A stretch of DNA of 59,072 bases from positions 1 through 59,072 of the forward strand of contig CAMDFC010000007.1 of NCBI GenBank assembly GCA_945897185.1, read 5' to 3'. How positions within the stretch are numbered: the first letter of the stretch is position 1; each line of letters begins with the position of its first letter. The notes below the pieces were generated by a model. That model did not search any database, was not told the DNA's origin, and was given only the letters and a program-made list of their open reading frames with translations. The DNA is from Chitinophaga pinensis (GTDB lineage: Bacteria > Bacteroidota > Bacteroidia > Chitinophagales > Chitinophagaceae). Position numbers and translations under genes: made by a program. This document shows positions 2,147 through 59,072 of this stretch, piece by piece.

Positions 2147-4957
2147 ATGCGTTCAAAAGAAGAAAATATTGAGGTAATTGGAGCCAGGGCGCATAATTTA
2201 AAGAACATTGATATTTCGATACCCAAGAATAAGTTAGTGGTAATTACGGGTATCAGCGGAAGTGGGAAGTCCTCTCTTGCTTTTGATACCATTTATGCCG
2301 AGGGTCACCGTAGGTACATGGAAACCTTCGGCACCTATGCACGTCAGTTTATGGGAGAAATGGAAAGACCGGATGTAGATAAAATCAGCGGTTTATCTCC
2401 GGTAATTTCTATTGAACAAAAAACGACCAATAAAAATCCTCGTTCAACGGTAGGCACTGTTACTGAGGTATATGATTTTCTCCGCCTTTTCTTTGCAAGA
2501 GTAAGTGAAGCCTATTCTTTGAACACCGGAAAAAAGATGGTGAAGTTTAGCGATGAGGAAATTGTCGCCGACTTATTCAAAAAACTTCCTGGAAAAAAAA
2601 TTACAGTATTAGCACCCTTGGTGCGAGGCAGAAAGGGGCATTACCGCGAGCTATTTGAAGAGACCAGGAAAAAAGGTTTTGTTCGTGTTCGTGTGGATGG
2701 TGAACTGAAGGAGTTGGTACCGAAAATGCAAGTGGATCGCTACAAAATGCATGATATTGAAGTGGTGGTGGATAGGTTGGTGGTTGAAGCGGAAATGAAA
2801 GTTCGGATTGGTCAGAGCATACAGCAATCCATGCAAATAGGAAAAGGGCTGATATTTATATTTGATCATGATTCAGAAAAGCTAATTCAGTATAGTAAAA
2901 AATTGATGTGTGCTGATTCTGGAATTTCATATGAAGAGCCATCACCCAATACCTTTTCTTTTAACTCTCCCTATGGGGCTTGTACAACTTGTAAAGGAAT
3001 TGGACAGCAATATACAATCGACCTCCAAGCAGTTATTCCAGATAGGAGTTTATCCATTGTAGATGGTGCTATACTTCCTTTGGGTGAAGCAAGGGATTCT
3101 TTTTATTTCAAAATGGTGGAGCAGCTAGCGAAGAAGAAAAAATTCAGTTTAAAGACACCCATTGATCAATTGAGTGAAAGTGCGTTAAATTCAGTGTTGT
3201 TTGGTAATGAAGAGGGGTTGGATACGGAGGAGGTTGAATTGGAAAAAGGAGATTATCCTGGAGTGGTAAACATGGTGGTGAAATGGTTTACGGACAGTTC
3301 AAGTGATATGGTGAGGGAGTGGGCAGAAAAATACATGATGCTTAAGCCTTGCACTTCATGTAATGGAGCAAGATTGAAGCAAGAGAGTTTGTGGTTCAAA
3401 ATTGATGAAACCAATATTGCGGAATTGTCGGATATGGATTTGAGTCTATTGCATGATTGGTTCAATGATCTGGAAAAGCGAATAGATAAAAAGCAAAATG
3501 CGATTGCAAAAGATATTTTAAAAGAAATAAGAAGTCGTCTTCTTTTTTTACTTGATGTTGGTTTGGGATATCTTTCATTAAGTAGGCCATCAAGGTCATT
3601 GAGTGGAGGAGAATCGCAACGGATTCGATTGGCTACACAAATAGGTTCGCAATTACAAGGTATTACCTATATTTTGGATGAGCCTTCTATTGGTTTACAC
3701 CAGCGCGATAATCAACGGTTGATAAAGGCTTTGCATAATTTACGTGATATTGGAAATAGTGTGTTGGTAGTGGAACACGACAAAGATATTATGATGGCAT
3801 CCGACCATTTGATTGATGTTGGTCCGCGTGCAGGAATTCACGGAGGCACAATCGTGGCACAAGGAACTCCTCAAGAAGTTTGTAATTCTAACTCAGAAAC
3901 GGCCTTGTATTTAAATAACCGTAAAAAAATTGAGTTGCCCAAAGAAAGACGTCAGGGTAATGGAAACAAGATCCAATTGATGGGTGCAAAAGGAAACAAT
4001 TTAAAAGGAGTGAATGCAGACTTTCCTTTGGGTACTTTTATTGTGGTTTCTGGTGTGAGTGGAAGTGGAAAATCAACTTTAATCAATGAAACGCTTTATC
4101 CATTATTAAGCAAACATTGTTATGATTCAAAAGCAGACCCAATGCCGTATAAACGTATTGTGGGTTTGGAGCATGTAGATAAAGTAATTGAAATTGATCA
4201 GTCGCCTATTGGTCGAACACCCAGAAGTAATCCAGCTACCTATTGTAATTTTTTCACGGATATACGTCAGTTGTTCGCAGCTGTCCCAGAAGCAAAAATC
4301 AGGGGATACAATGCTGGCAGATTTTCTTTTAATGTAAAGGCGGGTCGCTGTGATGTTTGTGAAGGTGGAGGACTCCGCGTAATTGAAATGAATTTTTTAC
4401 CGGATGTTTATGTGCATTGTGAAAAATGCAATGGCAGAAGATACAACAGAGAAACACTTGAGATTAGGTATAAAGGAAAATCCATCAGTGATGTATTGGA
4501 TATGACAGTAGAAGAAGCTGTTGAGTTTTTTCAGCACGTACCTTATCTCTACAGAAAAATTAAAATTTTACAAGAAGTAGGATTGGGTTACATCACACTT
4601 GGTCAATCTGCGGTTACATTGAGTGGAGGTGAAGCGCAACGCGTGAAACTTGGGACAGAATTATCCAAAAAAGATACAGGTAAAACATTTTACATTTTAG
4701 ATGAACCTACGACTGGACTACATTTTCAAGATATCAATTTGTTATTAACTGTATTGAATAAACTGGTGAACAGAGGGAATACAGTTTTGGTCATTGAGCA
4801 CAACATGGATGTAATCAAAATGGCTGATTATATAATTGACATCGGAGTTGAAGGTGGAAATGGCGGCGGCGATATCTTGTATCAAGGGGATGTATATGGT
4901 TTACTAAAAGTGAAGGAAAGCCATACTGGAAAATATTTAAAGCAGGAATTACAATAG
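2147..4957 (+). CDS. uvrA: UvrABC excinuclease subunit A
   Basis: Damage-sensing ATPase of nucleotide excision repair, 936 residues. It has two ABC ATPase halves: Walker A GISGSGKSS near residue 35 with signature LSGGESQRIRLA, and Walker A GVSGSGKST near 650 with LSGGEAQRVKLG, followed by ILDEPTTGLH. The second zinc module (CDVC ... CEKC) is intact. In the first, the canonical first CxxC is reduced to CADS, leaving CTTC as the second pair. The insert motif that often has cysteines after FFARV is AYSLNT here. This suits the Bacteroidota UvrA subtype, in which paralogs are common. A second uvrA elsewhere in the genome is possible. The start ATG has A/T-rich upstream sequence and no Shine-Dalgarno. 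Confidence 0.95.
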   Translation: MRSKEENIEVIGARAHNLKNIDISIPKNKLVVITGISGSGKSSLAFDTIYAEGHRRYMETFGTYARQFMGEMERPDVDKISGLSPVISIEQKTTNKNPRSTVGTVTEVYDFLRLFFARVSEAYSLNTGKKMVKFSDEEIVADLFKKLPGKKITVLAPLVRGRKGHYRELFEETRKKGFVRVRVDGELKELVPKMQVDRYKMHDIEVVVDRLVVEAEMKVRIGQSIQQSMQIGKGLIFIFDHDSEKLIQYSKKLMCADSGISYEEPSPNTFSFNSPYGACTTCKGIGQQYTIDLQAVIPDRSLSIVDGAILPLGEARDSFYFKMVEQLAKKKKFSLKTPIDQLSESALNSVLFGNEEGLDTEEVELEKGDYPGVVNMVVKWFTDSSSDMVREWAEKYMMLKPCTSCNGARLKQESLWFKIDETNIAELSDMDLSLLHDWFNDLEKRIDKKQNAIAKDILKEIRSRLLFLLDVGLGYLSLSRPSRSLSGGESQRIRLATQIGSQLQGITYILDEPSIGLHQRDNQRLIKALHNLRDIGNSVLVVEHDKDIMMASDHLIDVGPRAGIHGGTIVAQGTPQEVCNSNSETALYLNNRKKIELPKERRQGNGNKIQLMGAKGNNLKGVNADFPLGTFIVVSGVSGSGKSTLINETLYPLLSKHCYDSKADPMPYKRIVGLEHVDKVIEIDQSPIGRTPRSNPATYCNFFTDIRQLFAAVPEAKIRGYNAGRFSFNVKAGRCDVCEGGGLRVIEMNFLPDVYVHCEKCNGRRYNRETLEIRYKGKSISDVLDMTVEEAVEFFQHVPYLYRKIKILQEVGLGYITLGQSAVTLSGGEAQRVKLGTELSKKDTGKTFYILDEPTTGLHFQDINLLLTVLNKLVNRGNTVLVIEHNMDVIKMADYIIDIGVEGGNGGGDILYQGDVYGLLKVKESHTGKYLKQELQ

Positions 4958-4973
4958 GGGTTGGTGATTGGTG

Positions 4974-5006
4974 CAAAAAAAGAATCCGGAGACCAAGGTC
5001 CCCGGA
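4974..5006 (-). terminator. Intrinsic terminator for the minus-strand outer-membrane gene
   Basis: TCCGGGGACC and GGTCTCCGGA form a GC-rich hairpin with one mismatch. On the minus strand it is followed within four bases by seven T. It lies just past the stop codon of the gene at 5029-6015. On the plus strand no T tract follows, so it does not serve uvrA. Confidence 0.8.
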
Positions 5007-5028
5007 CGTCTTCATATGTGTACGGACT

Positions 5029-6015
5029 CTAAAACCTAACTACAGGGCATTTAACACCACTATTTCTACCATAACTGGATTCATTATTTCTTCCAAGACG
5101 AATGCTTATTTTTAATGTAGATGCATAATATGCGTCTTTGTTTGATGCAGTGCCACGTTTGTTTCCTTCACCATAACTTGGCCTAAAAACTCCACCATTC
5201 GCAAATGCTGTTTTGTTTGCCATTTGAATTGCCATTTTTGCTTCTGGGCTTTCTTCACCAAAATGGGCATAAAAATCTTCGTTGCTGATGTAGTTTGTAC
5301 TTACATCATCGATATAGTCAGTGAATGTTTTTCTGTTTACTATTTCAAATGCGAGTGCAACATTTTGATTAAAATAGTATTTAACGCCAAAACCATAAGG
5401 CAGGTTCATTTGAGTGAGTTTATACTCTTTGCGGTCGGCATACTTTGCCATGCCCTGTCCTTCAGTTTTTAGTGGCTTTAAATCAACCCAGGTTTTTGTT
5501 CCGTCTTCTGCTTCATATTGCGCTTGTGGTTTGAAATTAAAAACGCCAACTCCCAAAACGAAGTAAGGTCTTATTCTGTGGTATACATCTTCAGGGTCAT
5601 ATTCAAATAAAGCGGTAGGATAAATTTCGGTAACCAACAAGGCCTCTTTTAAAGGCGATCTAAAATGTTGGTTTCTTGCTTTGCGTGCTTCTTCATATCC
5701 ACCTAATCCGTTTATTAGACTATCCGCACCAGCGAGTCTTCCGATATTTGCTGAGAGGCTAAATGAAATAAATTCATTCACGCGATAAGTTACGTGAGCG
5801 CCAGTCATGAATTTGGTAAGTGAAACCATGTTGTCTTTGAGAAAGGTTTTTCCTTTGCCTGCATTTCCGCCTAAGTCGCCAAGAAAATTTGAAAAACCGT
5901 AGTTGAAACCAACTTCCAATTTGGATTGCTGTGCACTTGCCATCCCTGTTTGGAGCAGGAGAACAAGCACAAAGGCACACAAAGTCTTGTATAGACTAAG
6001 TAATCTAGTTTTCAT
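5029..6015 (-). CDS. Outer membrane beta-barrel protein, DUF6089/PorG-like (paralog A)
   Basis: Exported protein of 328 residues with signal peptide MKTRLLSLYK...ASA-QQ. The mature part is rich in alternating beta strands, opens with GFNYGFSNFLGDLGG and ends in phenylalanine (KCPVVRF), as outer-membrane barrels do. It resembles DUF6089 proteins, the family that includes the T9SS component PorG; a role in T9SS is not shown. The gene at 8813-9805 is a clear paralog: both share WVDLKPL-x-TEGQGM near residue 176, TDYxDDVS, and a C-terminal KCPxxRF whose cysteine is the only one in the mature chain. It is followed by a strong terminator. Function unknown. Confidence 0.7.
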   Translation of the reverse strand: MKTRLLSLYKTLCAFVLVLLLQTGMASAQQSKLEVGFNYGFSNFLGDLGGNAGKGKTFLKDNMVSLTKFMTGAHVTYRVNEFISFSLSANIGRLAGADSLINGLGGYEEARKARNQHFRSPLKEALLVTEIYPTALFEYDPEDVYHRIRPYFVLGVGVFNFKPQAQYEAEDGTKTWVDLKPLKTEGQGMAKYADRKEYKLTQMNLPYGFGVKYYFNQNVALAFEIVNRKTFTDYIDDVSTNYISNEDFYAHFGEESPEAKMAIQMANKTAFANGGVFRPSYGEGNKRGTASNKDAYYASTLKISIRLGRNNESSYGRNSGVKCPVVRF

Positions 6016-6134
6016 GGGGTTGGATTAAAATTTATCTTTCGACATATTTTAAACGACAACCTTTAACCTTTTATTATACCATAAAGTAAAATCGAGGGGA
6101 AATGCGTTTAGAACCCTAGTGTTCTTCAGTAATT

Positions 6135-6587
6135 TTACGGATTTCTTAGCATTTTTACATGAGTAATATCATCTTCGAGATAGGTTTCACTGCATTGCAC
6201 AAACCCAAAACTTTCATAAAACTTTTTCAAATATTCTTGAGCACCAATTTTGATTGCGCAAGGTCCGTATAACGCCAATGTTTCTTTTATTGCATTGTTC
6301 ATTAATTCAATACCCACTCCTTGTCCTCGAAACATTGGAGATGAAACAACCCTTCCAATCGAGGGTTCTGTATAGGCCAACCCTGGTGGAAGTATCCTTA
6401 CAACAGCAGCCAGTACTCCATTTATTCTTCCTTGTAGATGGAATGCAAGTTGATCTCGATCATCCATATCTAAGAAAACACAGTTTTGCTCTACTACAAA
6501 AACTTCGCTTCTCAATTTGAGAATTTCATACATTTCTAGTGTAGTAAGTTCATCGAACTTTTTTAGAGACCAAGTAATTGCTTCCAT
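6135..6587 (-). CDS. elaA: ElaA-type GNAT N-acetyltransferase
   Basis: Small 150-residue acetyltransferase of the GNAT superfamily, ElaA subfamily. It starts with the family pattern ITWSLKKFDELT and has RSEVFVVEQNC and DDRDQLAFHL, then the acetyl-CoA loop RGQGVGIELM and the C-terminal YESFGFVQCSETYLEDDITHVKM. The substrate of ElaA proteins is not known. The gene stands alone, 119 nt upstream of the barrel gene on the same strand. A near-match -7 element (TAACTTTA) lies upstream. The family assignment is firm and the cellular role is open. Confidence 0.88.
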   Translation of the reverse strand: MEAITWSLKKFDELTTLEMYEILKLRSEVFVVEQNCVFLDMDDRDQLAFHLQGRINGVLAAVVRILPPGLAYTEPSIGRVVSSPMFRGQGVGIELMNNAIKETLALYGPCAIKIGAQEYLKKFYESFGFVQCSETYLEDDITHVKMLRNP

Positions 6588-6761
6588 GGTTTAAACTGGT
6601 GAGCTATAAAGTTACATTATCTTCTGTATTGCTGTTTAAATTCAACTTAGTTCACTCGCAAGAAATGAATTAAATTTGAAAGAAAAACAATAGCCAGTTT
6701 TTCTTTAATATTACCCAATCCCATAGAATACCTTAAAGGTGTTGGTCCAGTTCGTGCCGAT

Positions 6762-8801
6762 ATGCTTAAAAGGGAGCTTCAAATTTTTACATTTGAAGAC
6801 TTATTGAATCATTTTCCATTAAGGCATTTAGACCGTACAAGTATTCAGCTTATTGGTCAGATTAATCCAGAAATGGATCATGTGCAGGTTCGTGGTGTAG
6901 TCATTTCAATGGAAACACTTGGGGAACGAAGAGCAAAACGTTTGGTTGTTTATTTAAGAGACAAAACAGGAATTATTGAATTGATTTGGTTTCAAGGAAT
7001 CACTTGGGTAGAAAAATTAATTACTGTCGGAAACGAATATTTGGCTTTTGGGAAGCTTGGATTTTTTTTAGGAAAGCCGCAGTTGAATCATCCTGAAATA
7101 GAGTCGGTTAAGGAAAGTAACGCAGCAGGTAAATCTTATTTAGAGCCCATTTATCCTGTCACCGAAAAATTAAAAGCCAGGGGCTTAAATGGTAGGGCTA
7201 TTGGAAAACTCATGGAGCAACTTTTTTTGGTGTTAGAGGAAAAAGAAGTGGCAGAATTTATACCAATATCGTTGTTGCAAAAACACAATTACATCAGTAG
7301 ATACAAAGCCTATTTGCACTTGCATTTTCCAAAAACCCTTGCACATCATCAGGTTGCATTGGAAAGGATGAAATATGAGGAGTTGTTTGTGGCACAAATG
7401 CGATTGGGTATGTTGCGTTCTACGCGCCATCGTTTTTCAAGAGGCATTACCTTCGCGCAAGTTGGAGAAACCTTCAATACGTTTTATCACGAACATTTAC
7501 CTTTTGAACTGACCAATGCGCAGAAAAGGGTATTGAAGGAAATCAGGCAAGATACAGGCACGGGAAGGCAAATGAACAGGTTGTTACAAGGAGATGTAGG
7601 TAGTGGAAAAACCATAGTAGCCTTGATGTCTATGTTGATAGCAGTCGATAATGGGTTTCAATCTTGCATTATGGCACCGACTGAAATTTTAGCCAGACAA
7701 CATGCGGAACAGTTTGCGTTGTTATTGGCACCATTAGGGATTGAAGTTGGCCTGTTGACGGGCTCAACTAAAACTGCAGAGCGGAGGACAATTTTAACTG
7801 GTATAGAGCAAGGGACCATGAAGATTGTAGTTGGTACACATGCGTTAATAGAGGATGCGGTGAGGTTTAAAAACTTGGGACTGGCTGTGATTGATGAACA
7901 GCACAAGTTTGGGGTTGCACAACGTGCAAAACTCTGGGAGAAGAACAATGTGCCTCCACATGTATTGGTGATGACGGCAACACCTATTCCAAGAACTTTG
8001 GCCATGACTGCCTATGGAGATCTTGATTACAGTGTGATTGATGAGCTACCTCCTGGAAGGACACCCATAACAACGGTACATCGATTGGATGATGCAAGAC
8101 CACAGGTAATGGATTTTATTAAGTCGGAAATAAAACTGGGTCGTCAGATTTACTTTATTTTCCCGCTGATTGAAGAGAGTGAGAAATTGCAATATGAAGA
8201 TTTGATGCGCGGATATGAAAATATAAAATCATGGTTTCCAGAACCCCAGTATTGGATAAGTATGGTACATGGAAGAATGAATGGAGATCAAAAAGAGGTG
8301 AACATGAAAAGGTTTGTTGAAAGAGATACGCAAATCATGGTGGCCACAACAGTAATTGAAGTGGGTGTGAATGTGCCCAATGCTTCTGTGATGGTTATTG
8401 AAAGTGCGGAGAAATTTGGACTGAGCCAACTGCACCAATTAAGAGGAAGGGTAGGAAGGGGCAGCGAAAAAAGTTATTGTATTTTATTGTCTGGGAGTCA
8501 GGTTGGTAAAGATGCTAAGGACCGTTTAAAAGTAATGTGTTCAACCAATGACGGTTTCAAAATTGCAGAAAAAGACCTTGAATTACGTGGTCCGGGTGAC
8601 ATACAAGGAACAAGGCAAAGCGGGGCACTTGATTTTAAATTGGCCAATATTGTGGATGACAGGGCCTTGTTAGAGATTGCAAGAAATGAAGTAGAGCAAC
8701 TACTTTCAGTAGATCCAGAACTGAGTTTACCAGAACATCATCCATTATCAGTGCATCTGAAACAGAAACGGGGAGGCCATGCCTGGGCTAAAATCTCTTA
8801 A
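6762..8801 (+). CDS. recG: ATP-dependent DNA helicase RecG (N-terminus uncertain)
   Basis: Remodels stalled replication forks and Holliday junctions by branch migration. From the first ATG the product is 679 residues. It has the wedge/OB domain (about 50-160), helicase motif I GDVGSGKT, DEQH box in VIDEQHKFG, TATPIPRT, and the C-terminal VVGT/QLRGRVGRG motifs. Sequence upstream of 6762 continues in frame and reads NPIEYLKGVGPVRAD, the conserved RecG N-terminus, back to about 6690. That stretch has no ATG, GTG or TTG; the preceding in-frame stop is at 6666. Either a rare start (ATA 6690 or ATT 6669) is used, or a base is wrong or lost. Convergent with the next gene, 11 nt gap. Confidence 0.95.
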   Translation: MLKRELQIFTFEDLLNHFPLRHLDRTSIQLIGQINPEMDHVQVRGVVISMETLGERRAKRLVVYLRDKTGIIELIWFQGITWVEKLITVGNEYLAFGKLGFFLGKPQLNHPEIESVKESNAAGKSYLEPIYPVTEKLKARGLNGRAIGKLMEQLFLVLEEKEVAEFIPISLLQKHNYISRYKAYLHLHFPKTLAHHQVALERMKYEELFVAQMRLGMLRSTRHRFSRGITFAQVGETFNTFYHEHLPFELTNAQKRVLKEIRQDTGTGRQMNRLLQGDVGSGKTIVALMSMLIAVDNGFQSCIMAPTEILARQHAEQFALLLAPLGIEVGLLTGSTKTAERRTILTGIEQGTMKIVVGTHALIEDAVRFKNLGLAVIDEQHKFGVAQRAKLWEKNNVPPHVLVMTATPIPRTLAMTAYGDLDYSVIDELPPGRTPITTVHRLDDARPQVMDFIKSEIKLGRQIYFIFPLIEESEKLQYEDLMRGYENIKSWFPEPQYWISMVHGRMNGDQKEVNMKRFVERDTQIMVATTVIEVGVNVPNASVMVIESAEKFGLSQLHQLRGRVGRGSEKSYCILLSGSQVGKDAKDRLKVMCSTNDGFKIAEKDLELRGPGDIQGTRQSGALDFKLANIVDDRALLEIARNEVEQLLSVDPELSLPEHHPLSVHLKQKRGGHAWAKIS

Positions 8802-8812
8802 TTGATTAGTGT

Positions 8813-9805
8813 TTAAAATCTCGATGGCGGACATTTCAAATATTTATCGCCACCTATCCAAGATTCGTTGGTACCAGTAATTTTGCCCAAACTGATTAAT
8901 ATTTTTATGCTGGTGGTATAATAATAATCATTGAATTTATTCAATGAACCCCTAGGCTCAGTTGGAAGAAAGCCATTGACGTGAACACCATTGAGCCATG
9001 AAGGAAAATTTGCTTTCTGTTTGGCTTGATCTGCTAAAACGGTGCCTGCTCCAAAAAAGTTATCAAATTCAGCATTGTCGATATACCTGCCGCTCACATC
9101 ATCTAAATAATCTGTAGAAGTTGTCCTGTTCATCCATTCAAGGGCAATAGAAGTATTTTCAGTGATGTTAAAACGTACACCTATTCCAATTGGGAAAGAG
9201 AAGCTGGTTAGACTGTATTCTTTTGGCGCATTTGCAATAGGCATACCCTGACCTTCTGTTCTAAGTGGTTTTAAATCTACCCAATACAGTGCACCTGTTT
9301 TATCTAAGTACAAACTTCTTGGGTTAAACCTAAATACATTAATTCCACCAGCAATATAAGGGTTGAATCTGCCAAGGTTTTGTCCATATCTTTTGAAGAG
9401 AACGGGTAAAGGATAAAATTCACCAACGACTCCTACTTCTGCAATGGATGATCTGAAGGAGAAATTTCTAGCCAATTTATATAAGACAGTAGGATCTGCT
9501 TCTGGTTTTAATAATCGATCTGCGGCCTGAACTGAACCAATTAAAAGCGAAGCCCTCAAGGTAAAATAGTCGGTTAAATGGTATCCAAAATTAATACCAG
9601 CTCCAAGTCGGACTCTTGATGTAGGATTGTTTAAGTCATTGTAGATATAAGGAAAACGCCCCCCTATTTCACCTTCATATTGCATGGTGCTGAGGCTAGC
9701 ACCAAGCTCAAAACGACTTTGTGCATGAGTAGCTTCAGGAGCTAAAATAATAGATAATGTGCTGAAAAACAGCGTATTAAAATAAATCTTTTGAGATATC
9801 GACAT
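8813..9805 (-). CDS. Outer membrane beta-barrel protein, DUF6089/PorG-like (paralog B)
   Basis: Exported 330-residue protein with a signal peptide ending THA-QS. It then has barrel-like strands (FELGASLSTMQYEGEIGG) and ends KCPPSRF with terminal phenylalanine. It is homologous to the protein encoded at 5029-6015, sharing WVDLKPLRTEGQGM, TDYLDDVSGRYI and the same C-terminal cysteine motif. That cysteine is its only one. The two copies lie about 3 kb apart in the same orientation with elaA and recG between them, so they look like an old duplication. A T9SS or cell-envelope role is plausible from the DUF6089 resemblance but unproven. Confidence 0.7.
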   Translation of the reverse strand: MSISQKIYFNTLFFSTLSIILAPEATHAQSRFELGASLSTMQYEGEIGGRFPYIYNDLNNPTSRVRLGAGINFGYHLTDYFTLRASLLIGSVQAADRLLKPEADPTVLYKLARNFSFRSSIAEVGVVGEFYPLPVLFKRYGQNLGRFNPYIAGGINVFRFNPRSLYLDKTGALYWVDLKPLRTEGQGMPIANAPKEYSLTSFSFPIGIGVRFNITENTSIALEWMNRTTSTDYLDDVSGRYIDNAEFDNFFGAGTVLADQAKQKANFPSWLNGVHVNGFLPTEPRGSLNKFNDYYYTTSIKILISLGKITGTNESWIGGDKYLKCPPSRF

Positions 9806-49440: not shown

Positions 49441-49857
49441 ATGGCAATTTTTCACATTACCAGGAGAGAACATTTTAACGCTGCCCATAAACTTTTCAAT
49501 CCAAAATGGACAAAGGAAAGAAATGATGAGGTATACGGAAAATGTGCAAATGAAAATTGGCATGGGCACAATTTCGAGATTTTTGTCACCGTTAAAGGGG
49601 AGCCTAACCCCAATTCGGGCTTTGTTATTGATGCAAAGCTGCTCAGCAGAATAATTAAAGAACATGTAATTGAGGTGCTAGATCATAAAAACCTCAACTT
49701 GGATGTCCCTTTCATGCATGGTAAACTTTGTTCCATAGAAAATCTCAGTTACGAGATCTGGAATCAGTTGGCCCCATTGATGCCCACGGGGGTATTTTTA
49801 CATTGTATCCGGTTGGTAGAAACTCCCCGTATTTTTGTAGAGTATTTTGGCGAATAA
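49441..49857 (+). CDS. 6-pyruvoyl-tetrahydropterin synthase/QueD family protein (copy 1)
   Basis: A 138-residue tunnelling-fold enzyme. Zinc ligands are HFNAAHKL and HGHNF; the catalytic cysteine is in YGKCANENWHGHN, and the DHKNLN aspartate/histidine and ETP glutamate are present. It can convert dihydroneopterin triphosphate to 6-carboxy-tetrahydropterin (QueD) or to 6-pyruvoyl-tetrahydropterin (PTPS). Its helical segment (KLCSIENLSYEIW) departs from the usual NPTAENI pattern. Copy 2 follows after 62 nt. Confidence 0.9.
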   Translation: MAIFHITRREHFNAAHKLFNPKWTKERNDEVYGKCANENWHGHNFEIFVTVKGEPNPNSGFVIDAKLLSRIIKEHVIEVLDHKNLNLDVPFMHGKLCSIENLSYEIWNQLAPLMPTGVFLHCIRLVETPRIFVEYFGE

Positions 49858-49919
49858 CGCCAGTTTAATCGAACGATTTCGTTTTATTATTGTTTTATTA
49901 TTCAATTCAAGTTATTTAT

Positions 49920-50339
49920 ATGGGTGAAAAAGTAGCGGTATTTAGACAAGAACATTTTAATGCAGCTCATCGATTGCACAACCGAGCATGGACTGCCGAA
50001 AAGAATGCTGAGGTTTTTGGGAAGTGTAACTTACCCAACTACCATGGCCACAATTATGAATTAATTGTAAAGGTTATTGGTGAAGTAGATCCAGAAACCG
50101 GCTATGTAATGGATATGAAAGTGTTGTCAGATCTTATAGCAGAAAATGTATTAGAGCGATTTGACCACAAGAACCTAAATGAAGATGTACCAGAGTTTAA
50201 AACCTTAAATCCCTCAGCTGAAAACATCTCAATTGTCATATTTAAAATTTTAAGGCCATTGATAGACCAAACTTTATCGCTTCAGATACGTTTATATGAA
50301 ACACCACGAAATTTCGTGGAATATCCAACACACATTTAA
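49920..50339 (+). CDS. 6-pyruvoyl-tetrahydropterin synthase/QueD family protein (copy 2)
   Basis: A 139-residue paralog of the preceding gene: [33 protein letters not shown] and [10 protein letters not shown], all active residues kept. NPSAENIS is closer to the standard QueD motif than copy 1. The start is MGEKVAV at 49920; an ATG 30 nt earlier is less likely. The following folE gene starts 10 nt past the stop, so this copy is the better candidate for the folE-QueD (queuosine) step, with copy 1 for another pterin reaction. This is inference. Confidence 0.9.
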
Positions 50340-51919: not shown

Positions 51920-52225
51920 CTAGGCCTGAGCTTGCGGTCCGCCAAACTGAAAAGGAATTTGTACTTCTTCAAAATCTTTAATAGCCCCATTTATATCTTC
52001 GAATTTGTTGATATTGTCTGCCAATGCATTCAATAAACGTTTTGCGTGTTGAGGGGTTAATATGATTCTTGACTTTACCTTGCTTTTGGGTGTTCCAGGC
52101 ATCACACTTACAAAATCGACTACAAATTCTGCATAGCTATGGGTAATGATTGCAAGATTGGCATATTGACCTTCTGCAACCTCTTCTGAGATTTCAATGT
52201 TGATTTGGTTCTGCTGTTCACTCAT
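51920..52225 (-). CDS. DUF3467 family protein
   Basis: A 101-residue protein from MSEQQNQINIEI. Family pattern: GQYANLAIITHSYAEFVVDFVSVMPGTPKSKVKSRIILTPQHAKRLLNALADNI. A longer open frame to 52306 overlaps the upstream gene and the promoter region, so it is rejected. DUF3467 proteins occur widely, and some studies place them near RNA-polymerase or gas-vesicle-unrelated loci; no firm function. Cytoplasmic, no signal peptide. Confidence 0.9.
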   Translation of the reverse strand: MSEQQNQINIEISEEVAEGQYANLAIITHSYAEFVVDFVSVMPGTPKSKVKSRIILTPQHAKRLLNALADNINKFEDINGAIKDFEEVQIPFQFGGPQAQA

Positions 52226-52269: not shown

Positions 52270-54252
52270 CTAATTGCCAAATTCCCAAATTATTTGAAAT
52301 CTCCATTCCTTGTTTTGAATACTGTTTTTCGTGAGCGCAGCTACATCATTTTTGGGTCTTTTTTGCTCTCCCATTATTTTCAATTGAAGCTTTACTGTTT
52401 TTTTATACGCGTATTGGGCAAGTAAGTAAGTTCTTCCTCCTTGATCAAAATGTGCTGGAATGGCATAATAGGAAAGTAGATCCCTTTCGTAGGCATAAAT
52501 TCTGGCGCTATAAGTATCCGTGGAATAAAAGGTATAACGCAAGCTGATTGTCAGTGGTTCTGTTTGTGGTTTAATGATCAGTTCAAGATAGCTTAATTGT
52601 CCAGTTGCTGGTGTTTCATTTTCCTGAAACACTTTCACTACTTCATTTCTGCATCTTAAGTTGATTCCTTCCCATGGGGTAAATGAGAAATGCATTCTCC
52701 AGCGATGCACGGTGGTATTTCCAATTTTATTGGTGCGGTTGTCATCAGCGCCTTGATTTCCTGTTCTTTTTTCAATTTGAAAGCGGGTATAAAATTCAGT
52801 CTTCTTACTTGGTTTCCAGTTGTATTGAAGTGAATAAAGACTTCCTACTTCGTTTCTGTCTGAGGTAAATGTTGGCCAGTGATTTTGGTAGATATCGGCA
52901 AATCCTTCGATGCTGTGTTTGGGTTGTGGATGAAGATTGAAGCTAAATAATAATCCAGTTTCATTGCCTGCCTCTGAGTTTCTGGAAATACAATTTGATT
53001 CAAGTGCTTGGTATTTGGCAGCCATATTTCGGTAAATAAGTGATAGGTCTAACTTTGGATCTAGGCTTTTTAATAGTCCCACATTCATTGCATAATCGGT
53101 ATTTTTATCAATTGAAAACTCGCCAAACAAAAATCCTATTTTTGTTGTAAATCCTCCGTCTATACTTGCATTTCTCCATTCATTTCCTTCAATGGAATAG
53201 AGATTATACGGCAACTTTCTTTTTTGTATGGGCGAAGAAAAATGGGTTTGTATAAAGTTGAGTCCAATAGATCCCTTGTTGAAATGCAATTTCAGTCTAC
53301 CTCCAAAACTTGTTTTTGTAACGGCATCCTTATCCAGCATTTCTGATTCTGATCTGTGAATGCCTGACAAAAGAAAAGAACTTATCCAGCTTTTTTGTGC
53401 TAATGTATCTGTCACCAGATTGGCATCTATTTTTAAGCGGCTTAAAAAAAATCCAAATTCGGTATTTCTTTTTTTAAAATTGATTGCGAGTCCACGTTGA
53501 AAACGATTTTCATCTGTCCCCGTTTGGGCTTGAATAAAGTTGCCTTGCCTGTATCCACTGAGTATGTTACTGCTTCTGCCAAAAGCATAGCCCTGCCAAT
53601 GCGCCAATCCTTGTCCCATATTGATATTATAATCTCCAATGATAAAATCCTTGATGATGCCTCTGTTTCTAAATAGGGCATATATCCCTACATGGTCAAA
53701 AATATTTTTTTCTCCTGCATCTTTTTCAATCATTAGTCCCAATTGAAAACGGTCGCTGTATTTAAATTTGTAATTGAGCATTTGTTTGTTCCTCGTTATC
53801 CACGAATCCTTATTTGAGAATCCACTTCTGTTATTTCCTGTCCGGTACAACAGCGTGTGAGCGCCTTCTTTTAAGCTTTGTTTCCATCCGGGTTGAATAT
53901 TCATTTCCTTGTTAAAATGTAAGTAGGGAATTAGTTTTTTTATTGTGTTGAGGTTCCATGATGGAATTACTTGTAGCTCCATCAGGCTAAGAAATTGACC
54001 AAATTGATTTCTGTGTTGAATGAAATCATGGATTTGTTCTGGCGTTAAGATCATTAAGCCCGAAAGTGTTTCTGAAGAAACTGTATTGATGTTGTAGGTG
54101 TTGCGTTGAAGGTTGCTGTTCACTTCTGTGGGGTCACGTAATTGTAAATCATCTGTTGTTACGAGCTGTTCAATTTCTTGTTCGTGTTCTTCCTGCGCAA
54201 TTGCTGATTTGCAAAATAGCAGCAGAAAAACAAATAGGCTATTTCTCAACAT
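52270..54252 (-). CDS. Exported helix-hairpin-helix protein with large beta-rich domain
   Basis: A 660-residue exported protein, signal peptide [21 protein letters not shown]. Residues about 52-112 form a ComEA-like helix-hairpin-helix domain: YNINTVSSETLSGLMILTPEQIHDFIQHR, then LMELQVIPSWNLNTIKKLIPYL. The remaining 540 residues are beta-strand rich with aromatic residues alternating in barrel style (FQLGLMIEKD, YNINMGQGLAHWQGYAFG, TEFYTRFQIEKRTG). It is probably an outer-membrane barrel that carries a DNA-binding-type domain. Its start overlaps the end of the preceding gene by 14 nt, so it is in an operon with it. dprA lies about 4 kb away on the other strand. Confidence 0.8.
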   Translation of the reverse strand: MLRNSLFVFLLLFCKSAIAQEEHEQEIEQLVTTDDLQLRDPTEVNSNLQRNTYNINTVSSETLSGLMILTPEQIHDFIQHRNQFGQFLSLMELQVIPSWNLNTIKKLIPYLHFNKEMNIQPGWKQSLKEGAHTLLYRTGNNRSGFSNKDSWITRNKQMLNYKFKYSDRFQLGLMIEKDAGEKNIFDHVGIYALFRNRGIIKDFIIGDYNINMGQGLAHWQGYAFGRSSNILSGYRQGNFIQAQTGTDENRFQRGLAINFKKRNTEFGFFLSRLKIDANLVTDTLAQKSWISSFLLSGIHRSESEMLDKDAVTKTSFGGRLKLHFNKGSIGLNFIQTHFSSPIQKRKLPYNLYSIEGNEWRNASIDGGFTTKIGFLFGEFSIDKNTDYAMNVGLLKSLDPKLDLSLIYRNMAAKYQALESNCISRNSEAGNETGLLFSFNLHPQPKHSIEGFADIYQNHWPTFTSDRNEVGSLYSLQYNWKPSKKTEFYTRFQIEKRTGNQGADDNRTNKIGNTTVHRWRMHFSFTPWEGINLRCRNEVVKVFQENETPATGQLSYLELIIKPQTEPLTISLRYTFYSTDTYSARIYAYERDLLSYYAIPAHFDQGGRTYLLAQYAYKKTVKLQLKIMGEQKRPKNDVAALTKNSIQNKEWRFQIIWEFGN

Positions 54253-55042
54253 CAAACAATAAATTAAAGTGGAGTAAAATCGAATAGCCCAATTGGGGGT
54301 GTTGTGCAACGGCAACCGCTGTTGTGGTTCGTTTATTTTTTGTTTGTCCGCCTAAATAAAAATGGCCACTGCTGTTGGTTCCTCCAAAGAAGCCAATCTT
54401 ATAGAATGGGGTCCAAATGAGCGTTGATGTAATTTGTGTTTGTTGTTTTTTTTGTAGTTCAAGTTGAATAAAAACAACTTCACTTAATCGATATCCAATG
54501 CCCAAGGTTAGTCCCTCTACCTTTTTCGTAATCGCCCTGTTTTCTTTGGTAAGGGGTTGCCCATAGGTATAATGAATACCCATGGTTGTTTTCTCGTTAA
54601 TACAATGTGATAATCCTGCCGTGGCAACTATTTCCAAATCGGATGCATCGCCTTGGTATTGAAATTGTTCAATTCCAATAGCAATACCTATAGTGGTGTT
54701 TGAGTTGATTAATCGTCCGAAACCTAGGTTTCCTGCATAATGTTTGTGAATTTGGCCACCTTGAAATTGTCCATTAATCAGGAAATAACCAGATCCTAGG
54801 GGCTGTCCGTATGCTACCCTTATTGCACTCAATTCTTTGAGACCGAACTTGTTTTCTAGAATAATCCCCAATTGTTGTGCTTTTCTGAATCCCAACAAAG
54901 CCGGCAATTCAGCATTTGCCAATGCTGTGCTATTCATTTTCTGGTATGCACCCATACCAATTGGGATCACATTCGCACTGCTTTTTACTTGCCCTTTACT
55001 CCCCAAAGGGAAGAACAACAATACACAAATCCATTTCCTCAT
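54239..55042 (-). CDS. Exported putative outer membrane protein, unknown family
   Basis: A 267-residue protein with signal peptide ending SKG-QV. Strands such as [35 protein letters not shown] and [21 protein letters not shown] suggest a small barrel. The opening [28 protein letters not shown] is reminiscent of the PorV/PorQ and long-chain fatty acid transport (FadL-like) style, but I cannot assign a family. It overlaps the downstream helix-hairpin-helix gene by 14 nt, so the two proteins are probably made together and may form an outer-membrane pair. Confidence 0.7.
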
Positions 55043-58643: not shown

Positions 58644-59072
58644 ATGGAAGAAGATGTTTTTTTTCATTTGTCTCTTACCAAAGTGCCCCATATAGGGCAC
58701 GTACATATTGGCGTCTTACTGTCCCATTTTCGTAATCCATCTGAAGTGTTTAAAGCCAGTCGTAAGACATTAGAACAAATACCAGGTATTGGTGAAGTTC
58801 GGGCTACAGAAATAAAAAGGTTTAAAGATTACAAACGCATCGAATCTGAATTGTCCTTTACCGTAAAAAGTAATATTTCTATTCTTGTTAAACACAAGGA
58901 TAATTATCCTAAAAGACTAGAGAACTGTATTGATGCTCCGCATGTACTTTATTACAAAGGGACTGCCAATTTGAATCAGCGTCAGGTGGTAGCGGTTGTT
59001 GGAACGCGCGCACCCACTGACTATGGTAAAGATAGGGTTACAGAGTTGGTAACCTCACTTACAGATCTTGGT
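58644..59072 (+). CDS. dprA: DNA-processing protein DprA, 3' end outside window
   Basis: The first 143 codons of DprA, which loads RecA on incoming single-stranded DNA in natural transformation. The N-terminal helix-hairpin-helix/SAM-like domain is visible (LTKVPHIGHVHIGVLLSHF, IPGIGEVRATEIKRF), then NYPKRLENCIDAPHVLYYKG and the start of the Rossmann domain, VVAVVGTRAPTDYGKDRV. The gene is in frame with no stop to the window edge. The start is ATG at 58644, 102 nt after the PorE-like gene. Confidence 0.94.
   Translation, partial: MEEDVFFHLSLTKVPHIGHVHIGVLLSHFRNPSEVFKASRKTLEQIPGIGEVRATEIKRFKDYKRIESELSFTVKSNISILVKHKDNYPKRLENCIDAPHVLYYKGTANLNQRQVVAVVGTRAPTDYGKDRVTELVTSLTDLG

Follow-up and report, generated by a model that had tools for sequence, protein, structure and literature searches.

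The PilQ secretin serves type IV-pilus DNA uptake, and ComEA-type helix-hairpin-helix (HHH) motifs carry hairpins of the form glycine-hydrophobic-glycine (GhG). In P. gingivalis, the outer-membrane step of DNA uptake is stated to be unclear in the available part of PMC11532111. According to the available part of PMC8459023, the factors required for transformation of Riemerella anatipestifer include a predicted outer-membrane protein and one with DUF5689, the DUF5689-marked RA0C_RS04920 being essential. With regard to outer-membrane machines of the same phylum, BamG is described in the accessible text of PMC12611786 and PMC12578637 (both 2025) as the FadL-family partner of BamA in the Bacteroidota BAM, and Chlorobiota are given in the accessible text of one of the two as devoid of BamG, BamH and SprA.

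Here we describe a gene pair in the window (the whole 59,072-nt stretch of Chitinophaga pinensis DNA that was analysed), with the working labels HHHOMP for the 660-aa HHH and barrel protein and OMP2 for its upstream partner. Our best explanation, to which we give a probability of about 0.6, is that OMP2 and HHHOMP join in an outer-membrane complex of two barrels, by which extracellular DNA is imported into the periplasm. HHHOMP resembles the PilQ secretin in its proposed outer-membrane DNA passage and differs from it as a single predicted barrel in place of a secretin ring, with OMP2 as its sole recurrent neighbour. With ComEA it shares an exported HHH domain and a profile match to the ComEA structure 8dss; unlike ComEA, it is barrel-fused, its GhG hairpins are lost, and its domain is acidic. 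Like RA0C_RS04915/RA0C_RS04920 of R. anatipestifer (available part of PMC8459023), OMP2-HHHOMP is a Bacteroidota outer-membrane pair with a proposed role in delivering DNA to the periplasm. The two occupy complementary sets of genomes, and the Riemerella pair, known here by description, consists of a receptor-like barrel and a DUF5689 protein, whereas the present one joins an HHH-bearing large barrel to a PorV-type barrel. In the open-access literature, no paper was recognised as being about the HHHOMP barrel protein. If the import reading is true, the pair may be the route by which DNA crosses the outer membrane in many Bacteroidota, and a conserved barrel pair that is in one operon with comEC in a single family provides two named genes through which the outer-membrane question becomes directly testable.

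The locus and its two predicted barrels

The HHHOMP reading frame runs on the minus strand from an ATG at 54252 to a stop that ends at 52270, encoding 660 aa. The features of the locus are:

52270..54252, minus strand: HHHOMP gene, 660-aa exported HHH and large beta-barrel protein
54193..54252, minus strand: signal-peptide-like N-terminus of HHHOMP, residues 1-20 (from the sequence; similar starts in aligned relatives)
53911..54096, minus strand: degenerate HHH domain of HHHOMP, about residues 53-114
52273..53862, minus strand: predicted large barrel of HHHOMP, residues 131-660, 24-25 long strands (AlphaFold2)
54239..55042, minus strand: OMP2, the partner gene, predicted 14-stranded PorV/FadL-type barrel of 267 aa
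54239..54252, minus strand: coding overlap of OMP2 and HHHOMP, 14 nt (from the sequence)
51920..52225, minus strand: DUF3467 gene, downstream of the pair (profile match, E 3.1e-30)
58644..59072, plus strand: 5' part of dprA, running off the window end

The exported 660-residue protein of the initial annotation is recovered with a signal-peptide-like start ending in ...AIAQ, and the 14-nt overlap reported there lies at 54239-54252; similarly short overlaps or gaps separate the two genes in the relatives. The DUF3467 gene is outside the conserved OMP2-HHHOMP module: although 13 of the 14 closest own-genus loci have it, it occurs in just 20 of 136 loci overall. Promoter and terminator scans were near chance (10 found against 10.8 expected, and 3 against 2.8, respectively). 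At 49441-50339, two consecutive, mutually similar ORFs of about 140 aa both carry H.L......W and GKC....HGHN; we take them to be tandem QueD/6-pyruvoyl-tetrahydropterin-synthase-like paralogues.

The AlphaFold2 model of HHHOMP, based on 77 aligned sequences, has a pLDDT of 87.4 and a pTM of 0.86, with HHH helices at residues 41-129 followed by 24-25 long strands at 131-659, up to the C-terminus (the two structure alignments drew on the window sequence and on 76 and 56, respectively, of the 80 named loci). HHHOMP would thus be a barrel of about 24 strands, their exact number being approximate. Structure prediction, which the initial annotation had put forward as a check, and the HHH profile matches described below agree with its proposal of an HHH domain joined to an outer-membrane-type barrel. 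The barrel has the conserved motifs EKDAGE, GDY....GQGL and SGLHRT..E in the aligned relatives and a median net charge of +15, compared with -2 for the HHH domain and -9 for the linker in front of that domain. Fold matches of the barrel include AlgE, the alginate exporter (Z about 16), and the FimD/PapC ushers (Z about 15; 356-379 residues aligned at an rmsd of 3.9-5.5); LptD (9fz5) ranks low among those listed. Assignment to a specific fold family was rejected, as AlgE, ushers, TonB receptors and MtrB score alike (Foldseek, VIA-align 2). SprA and secretins are absent among the fold matches listed, which is no proof of difference. PDB searches with the two single sequences returned one match, at E 0.14, in one case and none in the other.

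In the OMP2 model (pLDDT 84.6, the N-terminal 36 residues at low confidence), 14 strands follow short helices. The best fold matches are FadL (Z 27.6), PorV (Z 25.8 and 25.1) and BamG (Z 22-24), the first of the PorV alignments giving 2.4 A over 243 residues. The PorV/PorQ model NF033709 (PorV_fam) matches 56 of the 57 aligned OMP2 members, with the window's own divergent sequence as the sole exception, and the family profile finds PorV in the PDB at 7e-5, while the BamG model NF053685 matches two of the 57 (best E 0.0026). By its predicted 14-stranded fold and by profile alike, OMP2 would belong to the PorV/PorQ-FadL family, which narrows the second putative outer-membrane protein of the initial annotation to a predicted PorV/FadL-type barrel.

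Conservation of the pair and comparison with other envelope machines

At E <= 0.001, HHHOMP is matched in 52 of 60 relatives and in 222 of 247 genomes of the phylum, a count that includes matches of HHH strength only in families such as f24; a strong full-length match is absent in f24 (Flavobacteriaceae-like, an inferred label), f23, f43 and f48. Judging by these matches, HHHOMP is not a chance ORF. Conservation of the pair in Bacteroidota, also suggested for checking, was found to hold: OMP2 is the only recurrent neighbour of HHHOMP, occurring beside it in 105 of 136 loci, usually immediately upstream, with the next commonest gene in 37. It is present in 63 of the 80 named Bacteroidota loci, mostly overlapping or touching HHHOMP (commonest gap -1 nt), and in five of the 17 loci devoid of it the upstream sequence is shorter than 900 nt. 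In family f22, 26 of 29 additional loci have it as well. In a smaller count of OMP2, over 86 locus entries, 61 passed (62 with the window's own), seven of the 86 repeating a place; L098, L109 and L114 also carry OMP2, outside that count. The pair persists between families while the remaining synteny disappears. In Chlorobium-like loci (an inferred label), OMP2 is missing upstream of HHHOMP, and a rluB-like gene, as read from its sequence, is situated where it would be.

Regarding the type IX secretion system (T9SS), HHHOMP is INDEPENDENCE from other machines. SprA occurs in 190 of 247 genomes; families f36 and f30 and genome G061, all with full-length HHHOMP, have no listed SprA match, whereas in f24 SprA is present in all 26 listed genomes and full-length HHHOMP in none of them. 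Because of this double dissociation, the pair is independent of the T9SS. The PorV-like partner could otherwise have pointed to a T9SS component, a reading that the same distribution largely refutes and that we regard as extremely improbable; T9SS membership was accordingly rejected.

PorV-SprA in the T9SS translocon and BamG-BamA both combine a FadL-fold barrel with a larger machine of the outer membrane. The arrangement thus recurs in the phylum, and OMP2-HHHOMP, distributed independently of SprA, would by analogy be another case. An envelope biogenesis or scaffold complex of the BamG-BamA kind, with a housekeeping role and the HHH as a protein-docking domain, could account for the phylum-wide distribution of HHHOMP and for the resemblance of OMP2 to BamG noted above. 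However, full-length HHHOMP is absent from whole families and from more than half of the 127 genomes of the window's own family, and so is not generally essential, and OMP2 finds its best matches in PorV_fam, with BamG models matching the two members only. We therefore hold this explanation to be improbable.

The helix-hairpin-helix domain

The sole Pfam match of HHHOMP is a sub-threshold one to HHH_3 (19.4 bits, cut-off 27; residues 55-112), and its NCBIfam match to comE is weak (23.2 bits, cut-off 152), so the domain reaches neither cut-off of the ComEA family. A profile of 77 relatives finds ComEA (8dss) at 4.1e-5 and EEPD1 (9yi2) at 1e-5 in the PDB, via the HHH region. On these profile comparisons, the HHH match is real, though weak for the window sequence.

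The hairpins themselves have changed. GhG, sought in both hairpins of the 77 aligned sequences including the window's, was found in none in either: hairpin 1 has glycine at neither GhG position, and hairpin 2 has the first glycine in 45 sequences and the second in 0. In the window member, ILT and SWN stand in its place, and the family-specific motif T/N/S..QI...YR...G...S..ELQ..P has replaced it; the domain is slightly acidic. Because GhG is lost, the domain acidic and the motif specific to the family, we read the HHH domain in the window's lineage as a docking or gating module. In a deeper sample, GhG is kept in hairpin 2 in six of 48 rows, at five places, in some deep-branching relatives, and for this reason DNA binding by the domain may be ancestral.

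The initial annotation envisaged a barrel-tethered ComEA that binds DNA itself through its HHH domain. The homology of the domain (Pfam, NCBIfam and PDB profile matches) and the GhG of those deep-branching relatives speak for such a protein, but its loss in 77 of 77 aligned relatives together with a median charge of -2 leaves ComEA-like DNA binding by the N-terminal domain unsupported in the window's lineage, and the same genome has a separate ComEA-like ORF. We consider this version unlikely. The separate ORF, of 243 aa, is located at G000:C12:36847-37236 (L067 8833-9564, minus strand) and combines a hydrophobic segment near its N-terminus with two HHH matches; judging by these features, this multi-HHH protein is the likely periplasmic DNA receptor of the window's genome. 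BT3167 is an HHH protein named in the available part of PMC10434189, with no tie to the HHHOMP family established.

Links to comEC, the Riemerella-type pair and the proposed import path

In family f22, comEC, which encodes the inner-membrane DNA channel, follows HHHOMP directly and in the same orientation in L076, L080, L082 and L093/L112, and the same arrangement is found in 26 of 29 newly fetched loci, with gaps of -13 to +62 nt, mostly -13 to +6. Of the remaining three, one has a comEC match at a distance of 1160 nt, and the flanks of the other two contain none. In total, comEC directly follows HHHOMP in 30 of the 33 f22 genomes examined, from 15 genera, the loci being those of the 30 best-scoring of 61 genomes (the previously sampled L076 among them) plus lower-scoring ones sampled earlier. 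Most of them have the order OMP2-HHHOMP-comEC, with genes overlapping or touching. In genome G061, also of f22, the single PF03772 (ComEC) match adjoins HHHOMP. Outside f22, no comEC was found beside HHHOMP in L034-L201, also with a broadened comEC profile, nor HHHOMP near the comEC loci of 20 genomes of other families, where the comEC profile, as a control, finds comEC in 20 of 20 loci; in the window's own genome, comEC is not linked to HHHOMP. Given 30 of 33 f22 genomes and none among the other loci, the linkage belongs to a single family, in which it is stable. All 46 genomes tested have ComEC, whether or not HHHOMP is present, and therefore HHHOMP cannot be its only outer-membrane route. 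In family f18, a multi-HHH ComEA-like ORF adjoins comEC on the same strand in two of 20 comEC loci (L328, genome G053, 3710-6945; L327, genome G122, 3717-6712).

The link to DNA uptake thus stands through comEC in f22 and falls through dprA, the transformation gene to which the initial annotation had pointed. Its start at 58644 was confirmed, but its proximity does not support uptake: of the 136 loci, 27 carry dprA (13 from L034-L047, the 14 closest own-genus loci, plus three further own-genus loci and 11 others), mostly where relatives of the window share its folD-queE-OmpA-dprA block, and dprA linkage was rejected as uptake evidence. The proximity reflects lineage synteny, with a block of divergent transcription in between. 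The finding itself is real and stands on better ground than the reason first given for it.

The comEC operon, maintained in 15 genera, also bears on a dedicated translocon for protein or glycan export, in which a large barrel and a PorV-like shuttle would act in the manner of SprA-PorV, separate from the T9SS, the comEC linkage of f22 being incidental. The PorV/PorQ type of OMP2, by profile and fold, and the usher and AlgE matches of the HHHOMP barrel would suit such a role; with the operon so maintained and no conserved substrate or synthesis gene adjoining the pair at the 136 loci, it seems rather unlikely.

Complementary distribution with the Riemerella-type pair is the second line of evidence. 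Among 50 chosen genomes, 18 of the 21 from the class that lack HHHOMP have strong DUF5689 (PF18942, E < 1e-40), versus three of 26 HHHOMP-plus genomes; the three f43 genomes among the 50, also HHHOMP-minus, have no strong DUF5689. Of 127 genomes of the window's own family, 53 have HHHOMP, 61 have strong DUF5689 (here E <= 4.3e-40), four have both and 17 neither, an anti-correlation with a raw Fisher p of 6.6e-16, ignoring kinship. Counted by genus, HHHOMP is present in 35, DUF5689 in 42 and both in four of 87 genera (p 1.3e-8, again ignoring kinship). An rpoB tree of 75 family genomes requires six or more changes of state for HHHOMP, and only three well-supported independent contrasts are available, which give a mean of 2.1 in the opposite (expected) way versus 0.2 in the same way, a difference that is not significant; three of 80 genomes were left out, two with no rpoB match and one with a split rpoB. 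With phylogeny taken into account, the near-exclusion of the two modules is still consistent with a DNA-uptake role, but non-significant. In two DUF5689 loci read, the DUF5689 gene is directly downstream of a receptor-like barrel gene. The window's pair is not of the Riemerella type, as PF18942 has no match in the window's genome and the Pfam match of HHHOMP is to HHH only.

DNA import is the role best supported because of the f22 comEC operon and this complementary distribution. Counted in its favour, besides these, are the conservation of the pair, the f18 adjacency of ComEA-like ORF and comEC, the PorV-family fold of OMP2, the positive charge of the barrel and the GhG of hairpin 2 in the deeper sample. 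Counted against it are the restriction of comEC adjacency to f22, ComEC occurring regardless of HHHOMP, the degenerate acidic HHH, the own-family genomes with neither module or both, the three non-significant contrasts, a large barrel that has no specific fold family, and the Chlorobium-like loci in which OMP2 is missing.

Under the import reading, DNA would meet HHHOMP at the cell surface and cross its barrel, the channel, with OMP2 attached as a partner for structure or substrate handling, comparable to PorV beside SprA and BamG beside BamA. On the periplasmic side, the HHH domain, its hairpins in the window's lineage no longer of the DNA-binding type, may dock or gate. Incoming DNA would then meet this HHH region and the separate multi-HHH ComEA-like protein, before ComEC takes over, and the pair would act as an import module with no known pilus. 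Gene content, gene order, sequence and predicted fold are what the analysis shows; the complex, the passage of DNA with its direction and the part played by the HHH domain are deduced from them. For the fuller formulation, a secretin-free, pilus-free and phylum-ancient Bacteroidota import through a ~24-strand HHH barrel and a PorV-type barrel, coupled to ComEC in one family and repeatedly swapped in evolution for the Riemerella-type receptor/DUF5689 pair, we see the chances as even.

The 53 own-family genomes with HHHOMP include G388, whose gene has in-frame TGA codons. In its locus (L314, G388:C1:826000-842000), OMP2 (local 6176-6964) has eight and HHHOMP (local 6904-8904) 14 in-frame TGA, with no TAA or TAG in either, and TGA often falls at hydrophobic or aromatic columns of the alignments. 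Three neighbour genes were counted as free of in-frame TGA, and the rpoB match is devoid of stops. From these codon patterns, it looks as if TGA is read as Trp in the OMP2/HHHOMP pair alone, which was perhaps transferred from a recoded lineage.
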